Position numbers and translations under genes: made by a program. A DNA stretch of 64,000 bases, taken from NCBI RefSeq assembly GCF_000237325.1, contig NC_017542.1, forward strand, positions 2,452,501 through 2,516,500. The letters are read 5' to 3'. This document shows positions 55,813-64,000 of the stretch, piece by piece. Source of the stretch: Paenibacillus polymyxa M1 (GTDB taxonomy: Bacteria; Bacillota; Bacilli; Paenibacillales; Paenibacillaceae). The notes below the pieces were generated by a model. The model made no database searches. It was given only the letters and a program-made list of their open reading frames with translations, and was not told the DNA's origin. Every line of letters starts with the position of its first letter. The first letter of the stretch is position 1.

Positions 55813-56637
55813 ATGACGACTCGATCACAATCTTGGTTCGCGAAAACAGAGGTCCAACCAACTGCGAAACTCCAACTATTTTGCTTCCCCTACGCCGGCG
55901 GCGGTGCTTACATATTTAACTCTTGGAAGTCCAGGCTCGCACCTGATATTACTGTGTTGCCAATACAACTCCCAGGACGTGAGGCCCGCTCCATTGAAGC
56001 TCCAATGGAAACCCTTCAAGACATCGTTCAATCGCTGGTTCCCGCTATGGCTCCATACATGCATAAGCCGTTTGCCTTTTTTGGACATAGCATGGGGGCA
56101 CTGATTGCATTTGAAACAGCACGGCAGTTGTACAGCAAAACAGGAAAACTACCTGTGCATATCATCGTATCTGGCAAATCCGCCCCTCATATTCCATACT
56201 CCAAAAAACGACTCCATGATTTAGCAGATGATTCTTTCACCGAAGAGCTCCGTTTGATGCAGGGCACCCCCGAAGAGGTGCTGCAAAATGCAGAATTGAT
56301 GCAAATTATTATGCCTCGTCTGCGTGCAGATTTTAAGGTATGTGAAACTTATGTTTATCAGCCGGGAAATCCACTGGCATGCCCGATGACGGTTCTAGGG
56401 GGAACGAAGGATTTTGAGGTTAGCACAGACTCACTCCGTGCCTGGCAGCAGCATACGATGTCACCTATGGATGTCCGGATGTTCGAAGGCAATCACTTTT
56501 TCATCCATGAACAAGAGCAAGAGGTTATGAGTGCAGTCGAGGACATTCTTTCCGCATCCTCGCCGATGGCCCACACTGCGGCAGCTCATACAGCTTGCAA
56601 CACAAGCACTCCACAACCACGATTCAGGCAGAGTTGA
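55813..56637 (+). CDS. type II thioesterase (NRPS-associated)
   Basis: 274 residues of the alpha/beta hydrolase type II thioesterase family. The N-terminus has the typical LFCFPYAGGGAYIF, the nucleophile Ser lies in FFGHSMGALIAFE near residue 95, the Asp in GGTKDFEVS near 198, and the His in FEGNHFFI near 227. The C-terminal 20 residues are longer than usual and Ala/Thr-rich. These enzymes remove misprimed groups from carrier domains. It precedes the damaged ABC/NRPS genes and the large NRPS, so it belongs to the same locus. GGATGGAGG precedes the ATG. Confidence 0.88.
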   Translation: MTTRSQSWFAKTEVQPTAKLQLFCFPYAGGGAYIFNSWKSRLAPDITVLPIQLPGREARSIEAPMETLQDIVQSLVPAMAPYMHKPFAFFGHSMGALIAFETARQLYSKTGKLPVHIIVSGKSAPHIPYSKKRLHDLADDSFTEELRLMQGTPEEVLQNAELMQIIMPRLRADFKVCETYVYQPGNPLACPMTVLGGTKDFEVSTDSLRAWQQHTMSPMDVRMFEGNHFFIHEQEQEVMSAVEDILSASSPMAHTAAAHTACNTSTPQPRFRQS

Positions 56638-56846: not shown

Positions 56847-57256
56847 ATGCCCTTGTTTCGAGCAAATTCTGCTTTTCGGAGACTTACACGTTATATAAAA
56901 CCGTATAACCTTTGGGTTTTTATAACCGTAATTTCTTCTTTGTGTTTAGCAGCTATTGACATTATTTTGGGTAAGGCCATAGAGCAAATGGCACAGGGCA
57001 CATTCTCCTCCACCCAGAACATGATCTATCTAGTTGTTGGTATGACGGTCATTGGAATGCCTTGTAAGTTTGTGATGAGGTACGCTTCAGCACGATTTAG
57101 TGTTAGTGCATTGCGTGACTTGAGAGGCGATCTCGTACATAAGTTTTATGATTTACCTGTTTCTAGCGTGGAGAGGAAGTTCACCGGAGATCTGGTATCC
57201 CGTCTAACAAACAATACGGCGCTGTTGCAGAACTTTTTTATCCAGCAATTTGCTAA
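56847..57256 (+). pseudogene. truncated ABC exporter (N-terminal transmembrane domain only)
   Basis: About 135 codons match the first part of an ABC exporter transmembrane domain, with FLT-like helices and the conserved DLRGDLVHKFYDLPVSSVE and FTGDLVSRLTNNTALLQ stretches. The similarity ends at about IQQFANQ, where it meets a condensation-domain sequence in another frame. The rest of the transmembrane domain and the whole ATPase domain are missing. It is therefore a 5' remnant whose 3' part has been lost in a deletion or recombination. The remaining frame continues into unrelated residues up to 57425. Confidence 0.75.
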
Positions 57257-58192
57257 TCAGACGGTGTATCGTCTAACCATATCGTGCAGGAGCTGGGACA
57301 ACTGTACGAGGGACAGGCCTTGGAGCCGCTGCCAATTCAGTACAAGGACTATGCGGTGTGGCAGCAGCAGGAAATGCAGCGTGAGTCCTACCAGCGCCGG
57401 GAACAGTTCTGGCTGGAGCATTTAGCCGGGGAATTACCGGTACTGGATCTGCCGATTGCTTATCCTAGACCTGCTGTTCGCAGCTTCGAGGGAGCAACGT
57501 ATGAGTTTACCGTGGACCCGAATGTATCCGAGCAATTGCGCCAAGTGGCGGCACAGACCGGAAGTACGCTGTACATGGTGCTGATGAGCGCCTACACCGT
57601 TCTGCTGTCCAAATATAGTGGTCAGGACGATTTGATCATCGGTACGCCGGTAGCAGGTCGTTTGTTACCTGAACTGGAGCCGCTGATCGGCATGTTCGTC
57701 AATACACTAGCCATCCGGCATCAGCCGCAGGGCAACTCAACGTTCCACAGCTACCTACTGGAAGCCCGAGAGCGTACGTTACAAGCCTTCGAGCATCAGG
57801 ATTATCCGCTGGAAGAGCTGGTGGAAAAGCTGGATATAGTACGGGATGCAAGCCGTAATCCGTTGTTTGATACTATGTTTGTACTGCAAAATACGGAGTC
57901 ACAGGAAGCAAAGCTTGAAACGTTGTCCTTCAGTCCTTATGTGCAGGAGCATCGTATTTCCAAATTTGATTTGACCTTGTCCATGAGTGATGAAGACGGG
58001 CAGATCAAGGGTTCCTTTGAATATTGCACGAAGCTGTTTGGCGCTGACGCTATTGAACGATTAACCGGAGATTTGATAGCGATCCTGTCACAGGTTGCGG
58101 CCAATCCAGATTTGCAATTAAGCGATATTCAGGTGAACTTGGGTGAACAAGCAAAAGGCTTCTCACCGGATTCCATCGACTTTGTTTTCTAG
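57257..58192 (+). pseudogene. C-terminal half of an NRPS condensation domain
   Basis: About 311 codons align with the second half of a condensation domain. The first recognisable residues, SDGVSSNHIVQELGQLY, contain the DG of the HHxxxDG core motif, but the His residues before it are absent. Then come IQYKDYAVWQQ, the YxxxxFWLEHL region, RSFEGATYEF, GTPVAGR-type motif 5 and DYPLEELVEKL. A GTG at 57284 could start translation of the remnant. It stops in the linker where an adenylation domain should begin. It closely resembles the same segment of the second condensation domain in the NRPS downstream (about 61.6-62.4 kb). It cannot catalyse condensation. Confidence 0.8.
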
Positions 58193-58359: not shown

Positions 58360-61300
58360 ATGTCATTGAAAGCCTTATTTGAGAAAGAGAAAAATTACTG
58401 GAGTCATAAGCTGGAATCCGAGGATCGTATCATCTGCTTGCCATATACCAACCATGTGTCCAGGGATACAGCTGCAACAGATTCTAATTGTCATACGTAC
58501 ACGCTGACATTTCCATCAGAAATTTCCCAAAGAATATCATCTATAACAGGTGGGGCTCCATGGGCTGTATTTATGGTTCTGCTTGCTGGAGTAGAAAGTT
58601 TATTGCATAAATACACAGGTGAAGAAAGTGTGCTGCTGGGCATTCCTGTAGCCAAGTCTGGCAACGGTGCTACCAAGCCAATCAACCATCTGCTTTTATT
58701 GAAAAATACGCTGGATTCTTCAACGACCTTCAAAACCTTGCTGTCTCAGATCAAAACCTCTGTCAGCGAAGCTATTGAACACCAAAATATTCCTTTTTGG
58801 AACTATACCGAGGGGCTTGAAATCCTACGTAACAAGGACGACAAGCCTCTTATCCACACCACGGCCTCCTTGCAAAATATTCACATTTCTGATTTTCTAC
58901 ATCACGTGCAATCTGAGCTGGATTTTCAATTTCAATGGGAAAATGCTGCAGTTTCTCTAAACGTGAAATACAGTAGCGACCGTTACGACCAGGTGACGAT
59001 TGAACGCTTTGTTGAGCAGCTATTACGGCTGTATACCGTTGTTTTACATCAGCCAGAGTTGGAGATTTGCACAGCACAAGTGCTGTCAGAACAAGAAGTA
59101 GAGCAGCTGGTTCATACTTTCAACGATACAGCTGTAGATTATCCACGTGATGCTTCCATTCATGAATTGTTCGAGATACAGGCGAAGCAGGTACCACAGC
59201 AGGTGGCAGTAGTGTCTGGACCCAATAGCCTAACCTATGAAAAATTAAATGAAAAGGCCAACCGACTGGCTCATTTTTTACGTAAGCAGGGAATCCGTAC
59301 TGAACAGACAGTCGGCATTGTAGCTGAGCGCTCGATTGAGATGATTGTAGGCATGCTCGCGATTCTTAAAGCAGGCGGGGTGTATGTTCCGATTGACTCT
59401 GATTACCCGGACGAGCGCGTGCGTTATTTGCTGGAGGATTCCGAGACCAAGATACTACTTGTACAAAAAATGGAGCATCGGCCCACAGATTTTAAGGGAA
59501 TAGTACTTGACCTGAGTGATGATGCGATCTATGAAACAGATGATGCTGATCGCTGCAATTCCGTTTTGTCGTATGATAACGGGATGAGTACAGATACGGG
59601 TAATATGGGATATGTGGACTGCCTAAACCCACTCTATTCTATTTCTGCTAGTCCCGAACTTGCTTCTACTACAACTATCCCAACAGAAGCTACGCAATCA
59701 GAACAAGCTAAACCAATACAGCAGGTTTATGCAGCTGAAGAACAACCGAAGGCGACCGCAGCTGATCGATTGGCCTATATTATGTACACCTCAGGGACAA
59801 CAGGCCAGCCCAAAGGGGTAATGGTGGAACATCGCAATGTCGTTCGTTTGGTGAAACATGCAAACTATGCACGTTTGGATGCGGACACGCGCATTTTGCA
59901 GACTGGGTCTGTTGTCTTTGATGCGTCCACCTTTGAAATTTGGGGGGCGTTGCTAAATGGTGGACAGCTTGTGCTAGTGAGTCAGGATGTCATTTTGGAC
60001 GTGCTTAAGCTTAAGGAAGCTGTACGCAGCCACGGCATTACCACGATGTTTCTGACCACACCGCTCTTTAACCAGCTGTCTCAGCAGGATCTGGCGCTGT
60101 TCGAGGGGATACGGGAACTGCTGGTCGGCGGTGATGTGATGTCCGTACCACATATGACTCGGGTGCTGAAGGCTCATCCGTCCCTGCGAATCAGTAATAT
60201 CTATGGCCCAACTGAAAATACGACCTTTTCCACAGTGCATGCGATCAACGGTGTGCAATCGGAATCTGTGCCAATTGGCAGACCGATCCATAATTCGACA
60301 GCATATGTCGTGGACCGTTCGATGCAGCTTCAGCCCGTCGGGGTATGGGGTGAGTTGCTAGTGGGCGGTGATGGGGTGGCACGTGGATACCGCAACCGTC
60401 CGGACTTAACGGCTGAAAAGTTCATCGATAGTCCGTTCCGTAACGGCGAACGCTGCTATCGCACCGGGGACCTGGTACGTTGGAATGCAGATGGGGCGCT
60501 GGAATACAAGGGACGGATCGATGCGCAAGTGAAAATCCGGGGTTACCGGATCGAGCTGGGCGAGGTGGAAGCGCAGCTGTTGAAGCTGGAGGTGGTGCGA
60601 GAAGCTGTTGTGACTGCACATGAGGATGAGCAGGGGCAAAAGCAGCTCTGCGCTTATGTAGTAACTCATGCGAATGCACAGTTAAGTGAGCTCCGCAGCG
60701 CTTTGAGCCGGGAACTGCCGGGTTATATGGTGCCGTCGTATTTTGTGCAGTTGGAGCAGCTGCCATTGACGCCTAATGGCAAGGTGGATCGCCGAGCTTT
60801 GCCTCAGCCGCAGGGAAGCATAAGCTCAGGTGCAGAATATGTAGCTCCTCAAAATCAGTTACAAGCACAACTGGTCAGCATTTGGAAAGATGTGCTGGAA
60901 CTTGAGCGCATTGGGATTAAGGATAACTTTTTTGAAGCAGGAGGTCATTCCTTACGGGCGACAAATGTCATCTCGCTCATCCATAAGGAATTGCATAAAA
61001 ATGTGCAGCTAAAGGACCTATTCCAGCACCCAACCATCGAACAGCTTGCGCAGGTTATTGAAGCACTGGAGCAAACCACCTATGAATCCATTCCTGTTTC
61101 GGGAAATAAGCCATTTTATGCGGTATCCTCGGCTCAAAAACGGATGTATATTCTCAATCAGCTTGATGGAGCGGGAACTAGCTATAACATACCAGGCGCC
61201 TTGACATTGACCGGTTCACTTGATTACAAGGCACTGGATAACGCGTTCCGTCAGCTTATTTATCGCCATGAAACATTGCGCACAAGCTTTGAAAGCATGA

Positions 61301-64000
61301 ACGGTGAACCTGTCCAGCGAGTACATGACGAGGTTCCTTTTCGCGTGGAGTTGATTCATGCCCACGGAGCTGACCAAAAGGAAACGGATGAGCTGGTGCA
61401 TGGCTTTGTTCAGCCGTTTGATCTTGCGCATGCTCCGCTGTTCCGGGCGGGTCTGATTGAAACTGGGCCAGAGCATCATATTTTGCTGCTGGATATGCAT
61501 CACATCATTTCGGACGGCACCTCTATAAATGTATTGATTCAGGACTTCATCCACTTATATGCGGGGGACACGCTGCCGTCGCTGCGCATTCAGTATAAGG
61601 ACTATGCCGCATGGCAGCAGGAACAGCAGCAAAGTGAACGCTATCAGGAACAGGAAAATTACTGGCTCAATACCTTCGCAGGAGAGCTGCCAGTGCTGGA
61701 TATCCCGACGGATTATCCACGTCCGGCGGTGAGAAGCTTTGAAGGAGATGTACTGGAATTTACGCTCGATCAACGGCAAAGCGAAGGATTAAAAGGCATT
61801 GCGATGCAGACCGAATCGACCTTATATATGGTGCTGTTGGCTGCCTATACGACTTTGCTTAGCCAATACAGCGGGCAGGAGGATATCATTGTCGGCTCGC
61901 CGATTGCGGGGCGGCCACATGCTGATCTTAGCAGTCTGATTGGGATGTTCGTCAATACACTGGCGATCCGCAATTATCCGGAAGGCGGGAAAACATTCCG
62001 CGATTATGTGCTGGAGGTCAAGGATAACGCGTTAAAGGCTTTTGAACATCAGGATTATCCTTTCGAAGAGCTGGTAGAAAAGCTGGGCGTGGATCGGGAT
62101 TTAAGCCGCAATCCATTATTTGATACCATGTTTGCTTTACAAAACCTGGAGCAAACAGAGCAGCAGCTGGCAGAGCTGCAATTAGCGCCCTATCCGAGTG
62201 AACAAACAACGGCCAAATTTGATCTAAGTCTGTTCGCGCAGGAGGATGGGGAACAAATTGCCTGCGGTTTTCAATACGGAACCCGGCTGTACAAACGCGA
62301 AACCATCGAACGACTGGCTGTACATTTACAGCAGCTAATCAATGTGGTTATAGAACAGCCGGAGATCGCTCTTGCGGCTATAGAAATGGTTTCGGCCCAA
62401 GAAAAAGAGCAGCTGGTGGAGCAATTCAGCACTACAGCAGCAGACTCTCCGTATCCACGGGATCAATTACTGCATGTGCTGTTCGAGGAACAGGTTGCAC
62501 AATCGCCAGATCGACTAGCGATCACCTTTGCGGACACACAGCTCACTTATCGCGAGCTGAATGAGCGTTCCGATCGTCTGGCATGTGTCCTTACTTCCCA
62601 TGGGATACGGCGTGGGTCCGGGGCTCAGATACAGCGAGTAGGGATAGTAGCTGAGCGTTCCATTGAAATGGTCGTGGGCATGCTGGCTATTATGAAGGCA
62701 GGCGGGGCTTACGTTCCTATTGATCCCGAGTATCCGGAAGAGCGTATCCGTTATTTACTGGAGGATTCCGGTGCCGAGCTGTTACTGTCACAGCGACGGG
62801 AACAGATTTCTTTTGAACCAGGTATTCCGGTTATCGATTTGAGCGATGCGCAACTATGGAGCAGCGAATTTGAAGGATACACTCATACTCATGAATCAGC
62901 TTCCATTACAAATGGGGGGTCTGCCTTAGATCTTTCGCATGTCATATACACCTCTGGTACGACAGGCAAGCCGAAAGGCGTTATGGTCAATCACCGTAAT
63001 GTCGCACGGTTGGTGAAAGGCAATAGCTACGCCACGCTTGACGAAAATACGCGTATGCTGCAAATGGGCGCAGTTGTATTCGATGCCTCCACGTTTGAAA
63101 TCTGGGGAACGCTGCTGAACGGTGGTCAATTATATGTAGTAAATCATGACACTATTTTGGATGCTGCCAAGTTCAAACAAGTGATGAACAAGTATCGTAT
63201 TAACACCATGTTCATGACCACGGCTTTATTCAATCAGCATTCACAGCAAGACATTGAAGTGTTTGCATCCCTAAAGGAATTGCTAGTGGGTGGGGATGTG
63301 ATGTCCGTACCACATGTTAACCGCGTGCTGAAGGAGTACCCGCAGCTTCGGTTGAGTAATGTTTATGGGCCGACAGAGAACACGACCTTTTCCACCACCT
63401 ATGAAATTACAGAACCGCAAACTCAAGGTGTTCCCATTGGACGTCCGATTGATCATTCCACCATTTATGTGGTCAATCGTTCGTTAAAATTGCAGCCTGT
63501 CGGGGCGTGGGGCGAGCTCCTTCTCGGTGGCGATGGCGTGGCACTCGGGTATCTGAACCGGCCTGAGCTTACGGCAGAAAAGTTTATTGAAAGTCCATTC
63601 CGGCCTGAAGAATATTGCTATCGTACAGGGGATTTGGTGCGTTGGCGTGCTGATGGCGTACTGGAGTACAAGGGAAGAATGGATGAGCAGGTCAAAATTC
63701 GCGGCTACCGCATCGAACTGGGTGAAGTTGAAACCCGTTTGTCCACGATTGCAGGTGTGAAGGAATCTGTTGTTACTGTGCGGCAGGACGATAGCGGGCA
63801 AAAACAGCTGTGTGCATATTTTGTAACAGACAGCGAATTGAGCGCTAGCGACTTACGTAGTGTGTTATCACAGGATCTGCCGAGCTATATGGTGCCTTCC
63901 TACTTTGTGCAGCTGTCGAAACTGCCTTTGACACTGAATGGCAAAGTAGACCGTAGGGCACTGTCTGCACCTGAGCCTAATGTCGATACAGGTATGGATT
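58360..64000 (+). CDS. non-ribosomal peptide synthetase, half C-A-T-C-A (3' end outside window)
   Basis: An open frame of 1880 codons that runs off the right edge. GCAGGAGGG precedes the ATG at 58360. Domains by residue: C-lobe of a condensation domain without HHxxxDG (1-260), adenylation 1 (265-810), carrier 1 with Ser864 (GGHSL), full condensation domain with HHIISDG (919-1355; motif at 1047-1053), adenylation 2 (1370-1870). Adenylation cores YTSGTTG, NxYGPTEN and NGKVDRRAL are intact in both. Specificity residues read by eye are DAFFLGITFK and DAFFLGVTFK, nearest to isoleucine/valine codes. Carrier 1 has the DNFF-GGHSL form usual when no epimerase follows. A1 carries an unusual insert near 59.53-59.76 kb. 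Confidence 0.92.
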   Translation, partial: MSLKALFEKEKNYWSHKLESEDRIICLPYTNHVSRDTAATDSNCHTYTLTFPSEISQRISSITGGAPWAVFMVLLAGVESLLHKYTGEESVLLGIPVAKSGNGATKPINHLLLLKNTLDSSTTFKTLLSQIKTSVSEAIEHQNIPFWNYTEGLEILRNKDDKPLIHTTASLQNIHISDFLHHVQSELDFQFQWENAAVSLNVKYSSDRYDQVTIERFVEQLLRLYTVVLHQPELEICTAQVLSEQEVEQLVHTFNDTAVDYPRDASIHELFEIQAKQVPQQVAVVSGPNSLTYEKLNEKANRLAHFLRKQGIRTEQTVGIVAERSIEMIVGMLAILKAGGVYVPIDSDYPDERVRYLLEDSETKILLVQKMEHRPTDFKGIVLDLSDDAIYETDDADRCNSVLSYDNGMSTDTGNMGYVDCLNPLYSISASPELASTTTIPTEATQSEQAKPIQQVYAAEEQPKATAADRLAYIMYTSGTTGQPKGVMVEHRNVVRLVKHANYARLDADTRILQTGSVVFDASTFEIWGALLNGGQLVLVSQDVILDVLKLKEAVRSHGITTMFLTTPLFNQLSQQDLALFEGIRELLVGGDVMSVPHMTRVLKAHPSLRISNIYGPTENTTFSTVHAINGVQSESVPIGRPIHNSTAYVVDRSMQLQPVGVWGELLVGGDGVARGYRNRPDLTAEKFIDSPFRNGERCYRTGDLVRWNADGALEYKGRIDAQVKIRGYRIELGEVEAQLLKLEVVREAVVTAHEDEQGQKQLCAYVVTHANAQLSELRSALSRELPGYMVPSYFVQLEQLPLTPNGKVDRRALPQPQGSISSGAEYVAPQNQLQAQLVSIWKDVLELERIGIKDNFFEAGGHSLRATNVISLIHKELHKNVQLKDLFQHPTIEQLAQVIEALEQTTYESIPVSGNKPFYAVSSAQKRMYILNQLDGAGTSYNIPGALTLTGSLDYKALDNAFRQLIYRHETLRTSFESMNGEPVQRVHDEVPFRVELIHAHGADQKETDELVHGFVQPFDLAHAPLFRAGLIETGPEHHILLLDMHHIISDGTSINVLIQDFIHLYAGDTLPSLRIQYKDYAAWQQEQQQSERYQEQENYWLNTFAGELPVLDIPTDYPRPAVRSFEGDVLEFTLDQRQSEGLKGIAMQTESTLYMVLLAAYTTLLSQYSGQEDIIVGSPIAGRPHADLSSLIGMFVNTLAIRNYPEGGKTFRDYVLEVKDNALKAFEHQDYPFEELVEKLGVDRDLSRNPLFDTMFALQNLEQTEQQLAELQLAPYPSEQTTAKFDLSLFAQEDGEQIACGFQYGTRLYKRETIERLAVHLQQLINVVIEQPEIALAAIEMVSAQEKEQLVEQFSTTAADSPYPRDQLLHVLFEEQVAQSPDRLAITFADTQLTYRELNERSDRLACVLTSHGIRRGSGAQIQRVGIVAERSIEMVVGMLAIMKAGGAYVPIDPEYPEERIRYLLEDSGAELLLSQRREQISFEPGIPVIDLSDAQLWSSEFEGYTHTHESASITNGGSALDLSHVIYTSGTTGKPKGVMVNHRNVARLVKGNSYATLDENTRMLQMGAVVFDASTFEIWGTLLNGGQLYVVNHDTILDAAKFKQVMNKYRINTMFMTTALFNQHSQQDIEVFASLKELLVGGDVMSVPHVNRVLKEYPQLRLSNVYGPTENTTFSTTYEITEPQTQGVPIGRPIDHSTIYVVNRSLKLQPVGAWGELLLGGDGVALGYLNRPELTAEKFIESPFRPEEYCYRTGDLVRWRADGVLEYKGRMDEQVKIRGYRIELGEVETRLSTIAGVKESVVTVRQDDSGQKQLCAYFVTDSELSASDLRSVLSQDLPSYMVPSYFVQLSKLPLTLNGKVDRRALSAPEPNVDTGMD

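Follow-up and report, generated by a model that had tools for sequence, protein, structure and literature searches.

The closest described systems are the tridecaptin clusters triABCDE/trbABCDE/trmABCDE of Paenibacillus terrae NRRL B-30644, P. polymyxa E681 and Paenibacillus sp. M-152; in E681, TrbD comprises 10 modules and TrbE 3 modules, as stated in passages of PMC6429003, PMC6535564 and PMC8127968. Related to these is an orphan TriD-like nonribosomal peptide synthetase (NRPS), denoted 'unrps', which a passage of PMC11007031 (2024) describes in P. polymyxa DSM 365 and also in M-152 and CJX518, and the same paper proposes that TriE, or a free thioesterase, may finish the orphan NRPS peptide. 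With respect to P. polymyxa M1, the available part of Aleti et al. 2015 (PMC4397504) predicts a 'decapeptide, maybe a truncated tridecaptin' in SQR21, M1 and SC2, and a passage from 2021 (PMC8621861) reports tridecaptins from M1 by MALDI; the text of that passage gives no M1 masses and its HPLC fractions are those of DSM 32871. Word searches of the literature, including passages of PMC7773762, PMC6829208, PMC6465253 and PMC11106739, found no mention of the deletion in M1 that is described below.

The locus of M1 has the same gene order as these clusters and shares with them TriA, a three-module TriE with a thioesterase domain and the TriD tail, whereas triB is truncated, triC is absent, triD is reduced to 311 codons and a ten-module NRPS is encoded about 212 kb away. 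The window is the whole stretch of 64,000 nt that was analysed (G000:C1:2452501-2516500, with G000 denoting P. polymyxa M1), and coordinates without a contig prefix are positions in it; the features described in the window are on the forward (+) strand. At the 5' end of the cluster, the thioesterase gene triA (pteH in strain M-1; 55813..56637, Pfam Thioesterase, 6.9e-54) is intact, and a passage of PMC3708778 places pteH at 2,508,313 in M-1, which is window position 55813. It is followed by a 5' remnant of triB (56847..57258), the gene of an ABC exporter of about 600 aa, with about 137 codons left; this remnant is identified by comparison with relatives and by a match to the first part only of Pfam ABC_membrane; residues 1-137 of 138 are 80-94% identical to those of 8 relatives, 7 of which encode them in open frames of at least 629 aa. 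The triB frame (ORF 56847..57425) ends in an out-of-frame tail within triD sequence (57259..57425). The 3' remnant of triD (57257..58192, Pfam Condensation) consists of the C-terminal 311 codons, which begin inside the HHxxxDG motif of the final condensation domain and end with the C-terminal tail SPDSIDFVF. The next gene, triE (58360..63999, continuing to G000:C1:2522112), is uninterrupted over an open frame of 3799 codons and encodes a three-module NRPS with 3 AMP-binding, 3 PP-binding, 4 Condensation and 1 Thioesterase domains, the last of which carries GYSIGG. Past the window, the gene after triE (L031:14162-16078) encodes a 638-aa beta-lactamase-family protein, which may be the tridecaptin D-peptidase TriF. 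What M1 has lost is thus three quarters of triB at the 3' end, starting with codon 138, the whole of triC and everything in triD but its final 311 codons; the pair of ABC exporters TriB and TriC is missing, and no ten-module TriD is encoded beside triE, with an intact ten-module copy located elsewhere.

The first-pass annotation had pointed to a junction between an ABC exporter gene and an NRPS condensation domain, and the reading frames, Pfam matches and alignments to relatives agree on it. The exporter frame starts at 56847, reads ...NNTALLQNFFIQQFAN up to the junction and then runs through 55 nonsense codons to a stop ending at 57425; the exporter had been called recognisable up to this point, which holds except that the final Q of the annotated end is already the first nonsense codon. 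The NRPS frame from 57257 reads SDGVSSNHIVQELGQLYEG... to a stop ending at 58192 and starts inside HHxxxDG, as annotated: the right-hand Pfam match, Condensation, covers profile positions 142-446 of 456 and the left-hand match, ABC_membrane, positions 3-118 of 274. The stop codon that had been noticed just before the junction in the NRPS frame is a TAA at 57254..57256, directly 5' of the junction and supplied by triB sequence. In the base-by-base comparison with the parent sequences, the two bases TC at the junction (57257..57258) fit either parent in G032, G031 and G034, where matching extends up to 57258 on the left and from 57257 on the right; G072 and G073 give the same limits, and in G007 the left match stops at 57256, with 1 shared base at the join: of TC, only C fits the left parent. 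Because the parents share only 1-2 bases at the join, long homology did not drive the event, and breakpoints with at most 2 bp (TC) in common are those of an illegitimate, or microhomology, deletion. These comparisons show that the junction at 57257 is real and not a chance resemblance. Its two partners do not stem from two pathways: triB and triD belong to one cluster, and their join, which had been read as a fusion of two biosynthetic genes, is out of frame, so that no fused protein results.

The extent of the loss follows from the relatives, in which both flanks align to a single cluster, in agreement with the earlier suggestion of a deletion scar. In the closest relative, G072, the left side matches triB with 94.5% identity over 659 bp and the right side, including the triD remnant, matches the end of triD with 92.2% identity over 1644 bp; the inner ends of these matches, 2062 on the left and 46842 on the right, are about 44.8 kb apart. 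The spacing of the flanks is 44,536-44,781 bp in 6 references (G072, G073, G032, G007, G031 and G034), a count that leaves aside G016 (spacing about 31.9 kb, the fetched sequence containing 1045 N), G006 (triD end elsewhere) and six genomes whose fetched stretches hold no right-hand match (G014, G092 and G063, as first stretches, and G004, G062 and G093). The gene order of the relatives' cluster is thioesterase, ABC, ABC, an NRPS of about 14,060 codons and an NRPS of about 3,770 codons, and this cluster, which contains both flanks, is the tridecaptin cluster. The intact ABC gene and intact upstream NRPS that the first-pass annotation proposed to look for in related Paenibacillus are found there; the long NRPS, TriD, is encoded by one open frame in G031, G032, G007 and G073, is partial or rearranged in G006 and is broken by N stretches in G016. 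We consider it very likely that about 44.5-44.8 kb were deleted within triABCDE and that position 57257 marks the scar, which is defined to the base. As a separate observation, triD is split into several frames in G072 (7115, 2249 and 4885 codons) and G034 (11354 and 2793 codons), which might reflect either sequencing error or a pseudogene.

The earlier suggestion that a whole peptide pathway was lost holds only in part, given that triE is intact and an intact TriD paralogue is encoded elsewhere on the chromosome. This paralogue, here TriD2, is a single open frame of 14,242 codons (M1 2,734,453-2,777,181), about 212 kb downstream of the scar, with ten modules and 10 carrier sites; it ends in SPDSIDFIF, the TriD tail with one residue changed, and has no release domain. 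Among the 9 genomes searched for the TriD tail, two strong copies were found in M1, G032, G073 and G014 and one in each of the other five; the two copies in M1 are TriD2 and the scar. Orthologues of TriD2 in G032 and G073 (93% and 90%, respectively, with a 3-kb query) are present alongside intact tri clusters, the frame is open in all 3 genomes fetched (M1, G032 and G073), and G032 and G073, each compared with M1, give a dN/dS of 0.105-0.107 over about 14,025 codons. In M1, TriD2 is preceded by short pieces of the cluster in its own order, from the pre-triA region through triA, the start of triB and later triB to triD; these degenerate relics (L113, G000:C1:2733567-2734895) have similar counterparts before TriD2 of G032 (L119) and G073 (L122), the latter with an additional 47-bp piece of the triC end. 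To the right of TriD2, homology stops about 75 to 115 bp past the stop codon and no triE sequence follows. We infer that TriD2 is the surviving NRPS of a decayed triA-triD duplicate. It has in common with 'unrps' all ten residues of the predicted decapeptide, as given for DSM 365 in PMC11007031, the lack of a release domain and the absence of adjoining tri genes, although the passage of PMC11007031 reports no conserved genes near the orphan, whereas M1, G032 and G073 show the upstream triA and triB relics; furthermore, that paper shows a tridecaptin cluster in DSM 365 and M-152, in contrast to M1, which is without triD. The decapeptide synthetase of Aleti et al. is probably TriD2; in its available part, PMC4397504 reads the product as a decapeptide and mentions neither the scar nor the triE kept intact at the other locus.

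Two more features of the M1 genome bear on a possible pairing of TriD2 and TriE. Each of 9 genomes searched has a single strong match to the N-terminus of TriE (E <= 2.4e-88, against 1.0e-36 for the next best), and in M1 TriE is the sole close match of its kind; because M1 has lost triD, TriE has no other visible partner than TriD2. The substrates were predicted with the eight-residue code of adenylation domains. The codes of TriD2 predict Gly-Dab-Gly-Ser-aromatic-Ser-Dab-Dab-Ile-Glu and those of M1 TriE predict Ile-Ile(E)-Ser; at positions 1 and 9, TriD1 of the relatives differs from TriD2 in carrying a Val-type and an aromatic code, respectively. The Dab code is confirmed by a table in the available part of PMC3708778. 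Taken together, and with the aromatic residue read as Trp, the predicted codes of TriD2 and TriE fit the 13 residues of tridecaptin M, given in a passage of PMC6906472 as Gly-Dab-Gly-Ser-Trp-Ser-Dab-Dab-Ile-Glu-Ile-Ile-Ser. The region of adenylation domain 13 in M1 TriE is 89.7% identical to a Ser module of M1 TriD2 over 1213 bp and 84.2-84.5% identical to TriE of G031 and G034 over about 1410-1422 bp. The Ser code at position 13 was dropped as a mark of pairing with TriD2: TriE of G031, a genome with no second TriD tail, has the same code.

On this basis we propose that the M1 lineage lost about 44.7 kb of its tridecaptin cluster through an illegitimate deletion whose ends overlap by no more than 2 bp, with triA, the out-of-frame scar and the intact triE left in place; the lost TriD would have been redundant because the genome carries TriD2. 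TriE at the scar might then elongate and release the TriD2 decapeptide in trans, so that the two loci together would make a type-M tridecaptin, exported by some other transporter. The duplicate appears to have lost its thioesterase and exporter genes and is without TriE, and the original in M1 appears to have lost TriD and the exporters. We slightly favour this explanation as a whole, deletion and two-locus synthesis of tridecaptin M included. A two-locus pathway of TriD2 and TriE has about an even chance, and complementation of two damaged cluster copies, with TriD2 docking on TriE 212 kb away to yield the full type-M tridecaptin, falls just short of an even chance. Acceptance of TriD2 by TriE in trans, a product of the tridecaptin M type and the use of another exporter are each suggested rather than seen; against the two-locus pathway stands the loss of the M1 exporter pair, and the TriD2 product could instead end as a decapeptide. 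If the proposal is true, it would be a natural case of a giant NRPS assembly line split across loci and would suggest that two upstream synthetases can share a single release synthetase, a point of relevance to the origin of tridecaptin variants. DSM 365 keeps both synthetases, and completion of the TriD2 peptide by TriE therefore cannot be read from that strain; M1, as a natural triD deletion, makes the proposal of 2024 directly testable. Genome mining may label M1 as a tridecaptin or a decapeptide strain and miss that the parts are at two loci.

The main alternative, which we regard as possible but clearly less probable than the two-locus proposal, is that the deletion is real, TriE is a functionless leftover and TriD2 makes either nothing or a separate decapeptide. 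Such plain decay agrees with the available text of Aleti et al. (PMC4397504), where the M1 product is read as a decapeptide or truncated tridecaptin, and with dN/dS: values for triE are 0.126-0.179 between M1 and 5 relatives (0.114-0.216 between pairs of relatives), no lower than the 0.096-0.147 of the dead triD remnant, so that no selection after the deletion is visible. Selection on triE was accordingly given up as proof of function, this comparison having no power to tell a kept triE from one that is merely young. Losses of the locus in other genomes point the same way. The start of triB was found at E <= 1e-30 in 16 of 75 genomes of the genus, in short frames in three of the 16 (M1, G004 and G062); In G004 and G062 the loss begins within triB and extends past triE; G069, which was found via the left neighbour, keeps that neighbour without a triB match, and there the loss begins before triB and likewise extends past triE. 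The ends of the losses differ among G004, G062 and G069. A clustering of breakpoints in triB was considered and dropped, since the query with the triB start favours breaks in triB and the break in G069 lies before it. Loss of the tri cluster has thus happened more than once, an argument for plain decay no less than for a real deletion. What speaks against plain decay is that triE, an unbroken frame of 3799 codons, has all of its domains, that TriD2 is open and constrained in the 3 genomes fetched despite having no release domain, and that M1 is reported as a tridecaptin producer in the passage of PMC8621861.

An artefact of assembly or finishing, with a false join at 57257 and a complete tri cluster in the actual M1 genome, is unlikely. 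NRPS modules are repetitive, and, according to a passage of PMC11007031, assembly of a published draft of DSM 365 dropped parts of these very genes, namely 23.3 kb of triD and TriD2 in full; the tri locus is thus hard to assemble. An intact cluster would also trivially explain the MALDI report of M1 tridecaptins, and passages of PMC6052121 and PMC13298791, both silent on the wholeness of triD, list a tridecaptin cluster in the near relative SC2 and list M1 and SC2 as homologous to the tridecaptin M cluster, respectively. The assembly join between repeated modules that the first-pass annotation had considered is nevertheless disfavoured: the join is not in a repeat, its left side is the single-copy exporter gene triB, and the parents share at most 2 bp. 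Moreover, the rest of triB and triC are missing from this 2-contig genome. In DNA searches with the G072 sequences of the triB 3' part and triC, no match longer than 100 bp reached 75% identity among the candidates scored (40 of 81 with the query that found TriD2 and 40 of 42 with the other). As proteins, TriC and the rest of TriB have best matches of 60% and 56%, respectively, to other ABC proteins and in the ATPase part only (150 of 150 and 150 of 151 candidates scored). As these sequences are not repeated, their absence is not accounted for by collapsed NRPS repeats. Finally, a 152-aa protein on a 5.29-Mb NCBI contig (P0005) has the triB start joined to the triD end, as in the M1 scar but in frame, whereas the M1 join is out of frame, and such deletions thus seem to occur. 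In the window, ACCGGAGAT occurs in both parents at the places that match this join (57183 and 58064), which therefore looks like an independent event. We infer that the M1 assembly is correct at the junction.

The idea that TriD2 is the moved rather than lost triD, to which its 87-90% DNA identity to G073 triD over most of its length would lend itself, is rejected as next to impossible: it is contradicted by G032 and G073, where an orthologous TriD2 exists in addition to an intact tri cluster, TriD2 has its own upstream triA and triB relics, its codes differ at positions 1 and 9, and triC did not move with it.

The M1 junction itself was sought in collections that do not include strain SC2. 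Of 75 candidate proteins, 5 match the 192-aa frame, and all five lack the M1 tail. The plasmid collection gives 13 matching records, none over 80% of the query, and the junction is spanned by none among the 10 listed. Three records filed as P. polymyxa plasmids (CP097774.1, CP097776.3 and CP097777.3) carry the triD end with about 90.5% identity, and two of them (CP097774.1 and CP097776.3) continue into the triE start; all three are possibly mislabelled pieces of chromosome. P0006, a 278-aa protein family of 55 members with 94% identity, carries the label partial and may reflect only contig ends.

Several rearrangements and variants of the cluster were observed in the relatives. In G006:C1 the tri cluster is split between 4.22-4.26 Mb and 4.95-4.99 Mb, with triB, triC and most of triD together and the triD end and triE about 0.7 Mb off on the other strand. 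In G093 (L086, G093:C16, about 95200-96250), triD module 1 is seemingly joined in frame to triE, giving an NRPS of 3937 codons; this stretch matches both places in G073, consistent with either homologous recombination or assembly collapse, and the 19.9-kb locus holds 10 N. In triD of G031 (L036-L038), the codes at modules 3, 6 and 7 are unlike the others read and predict another tridecaptin variant.
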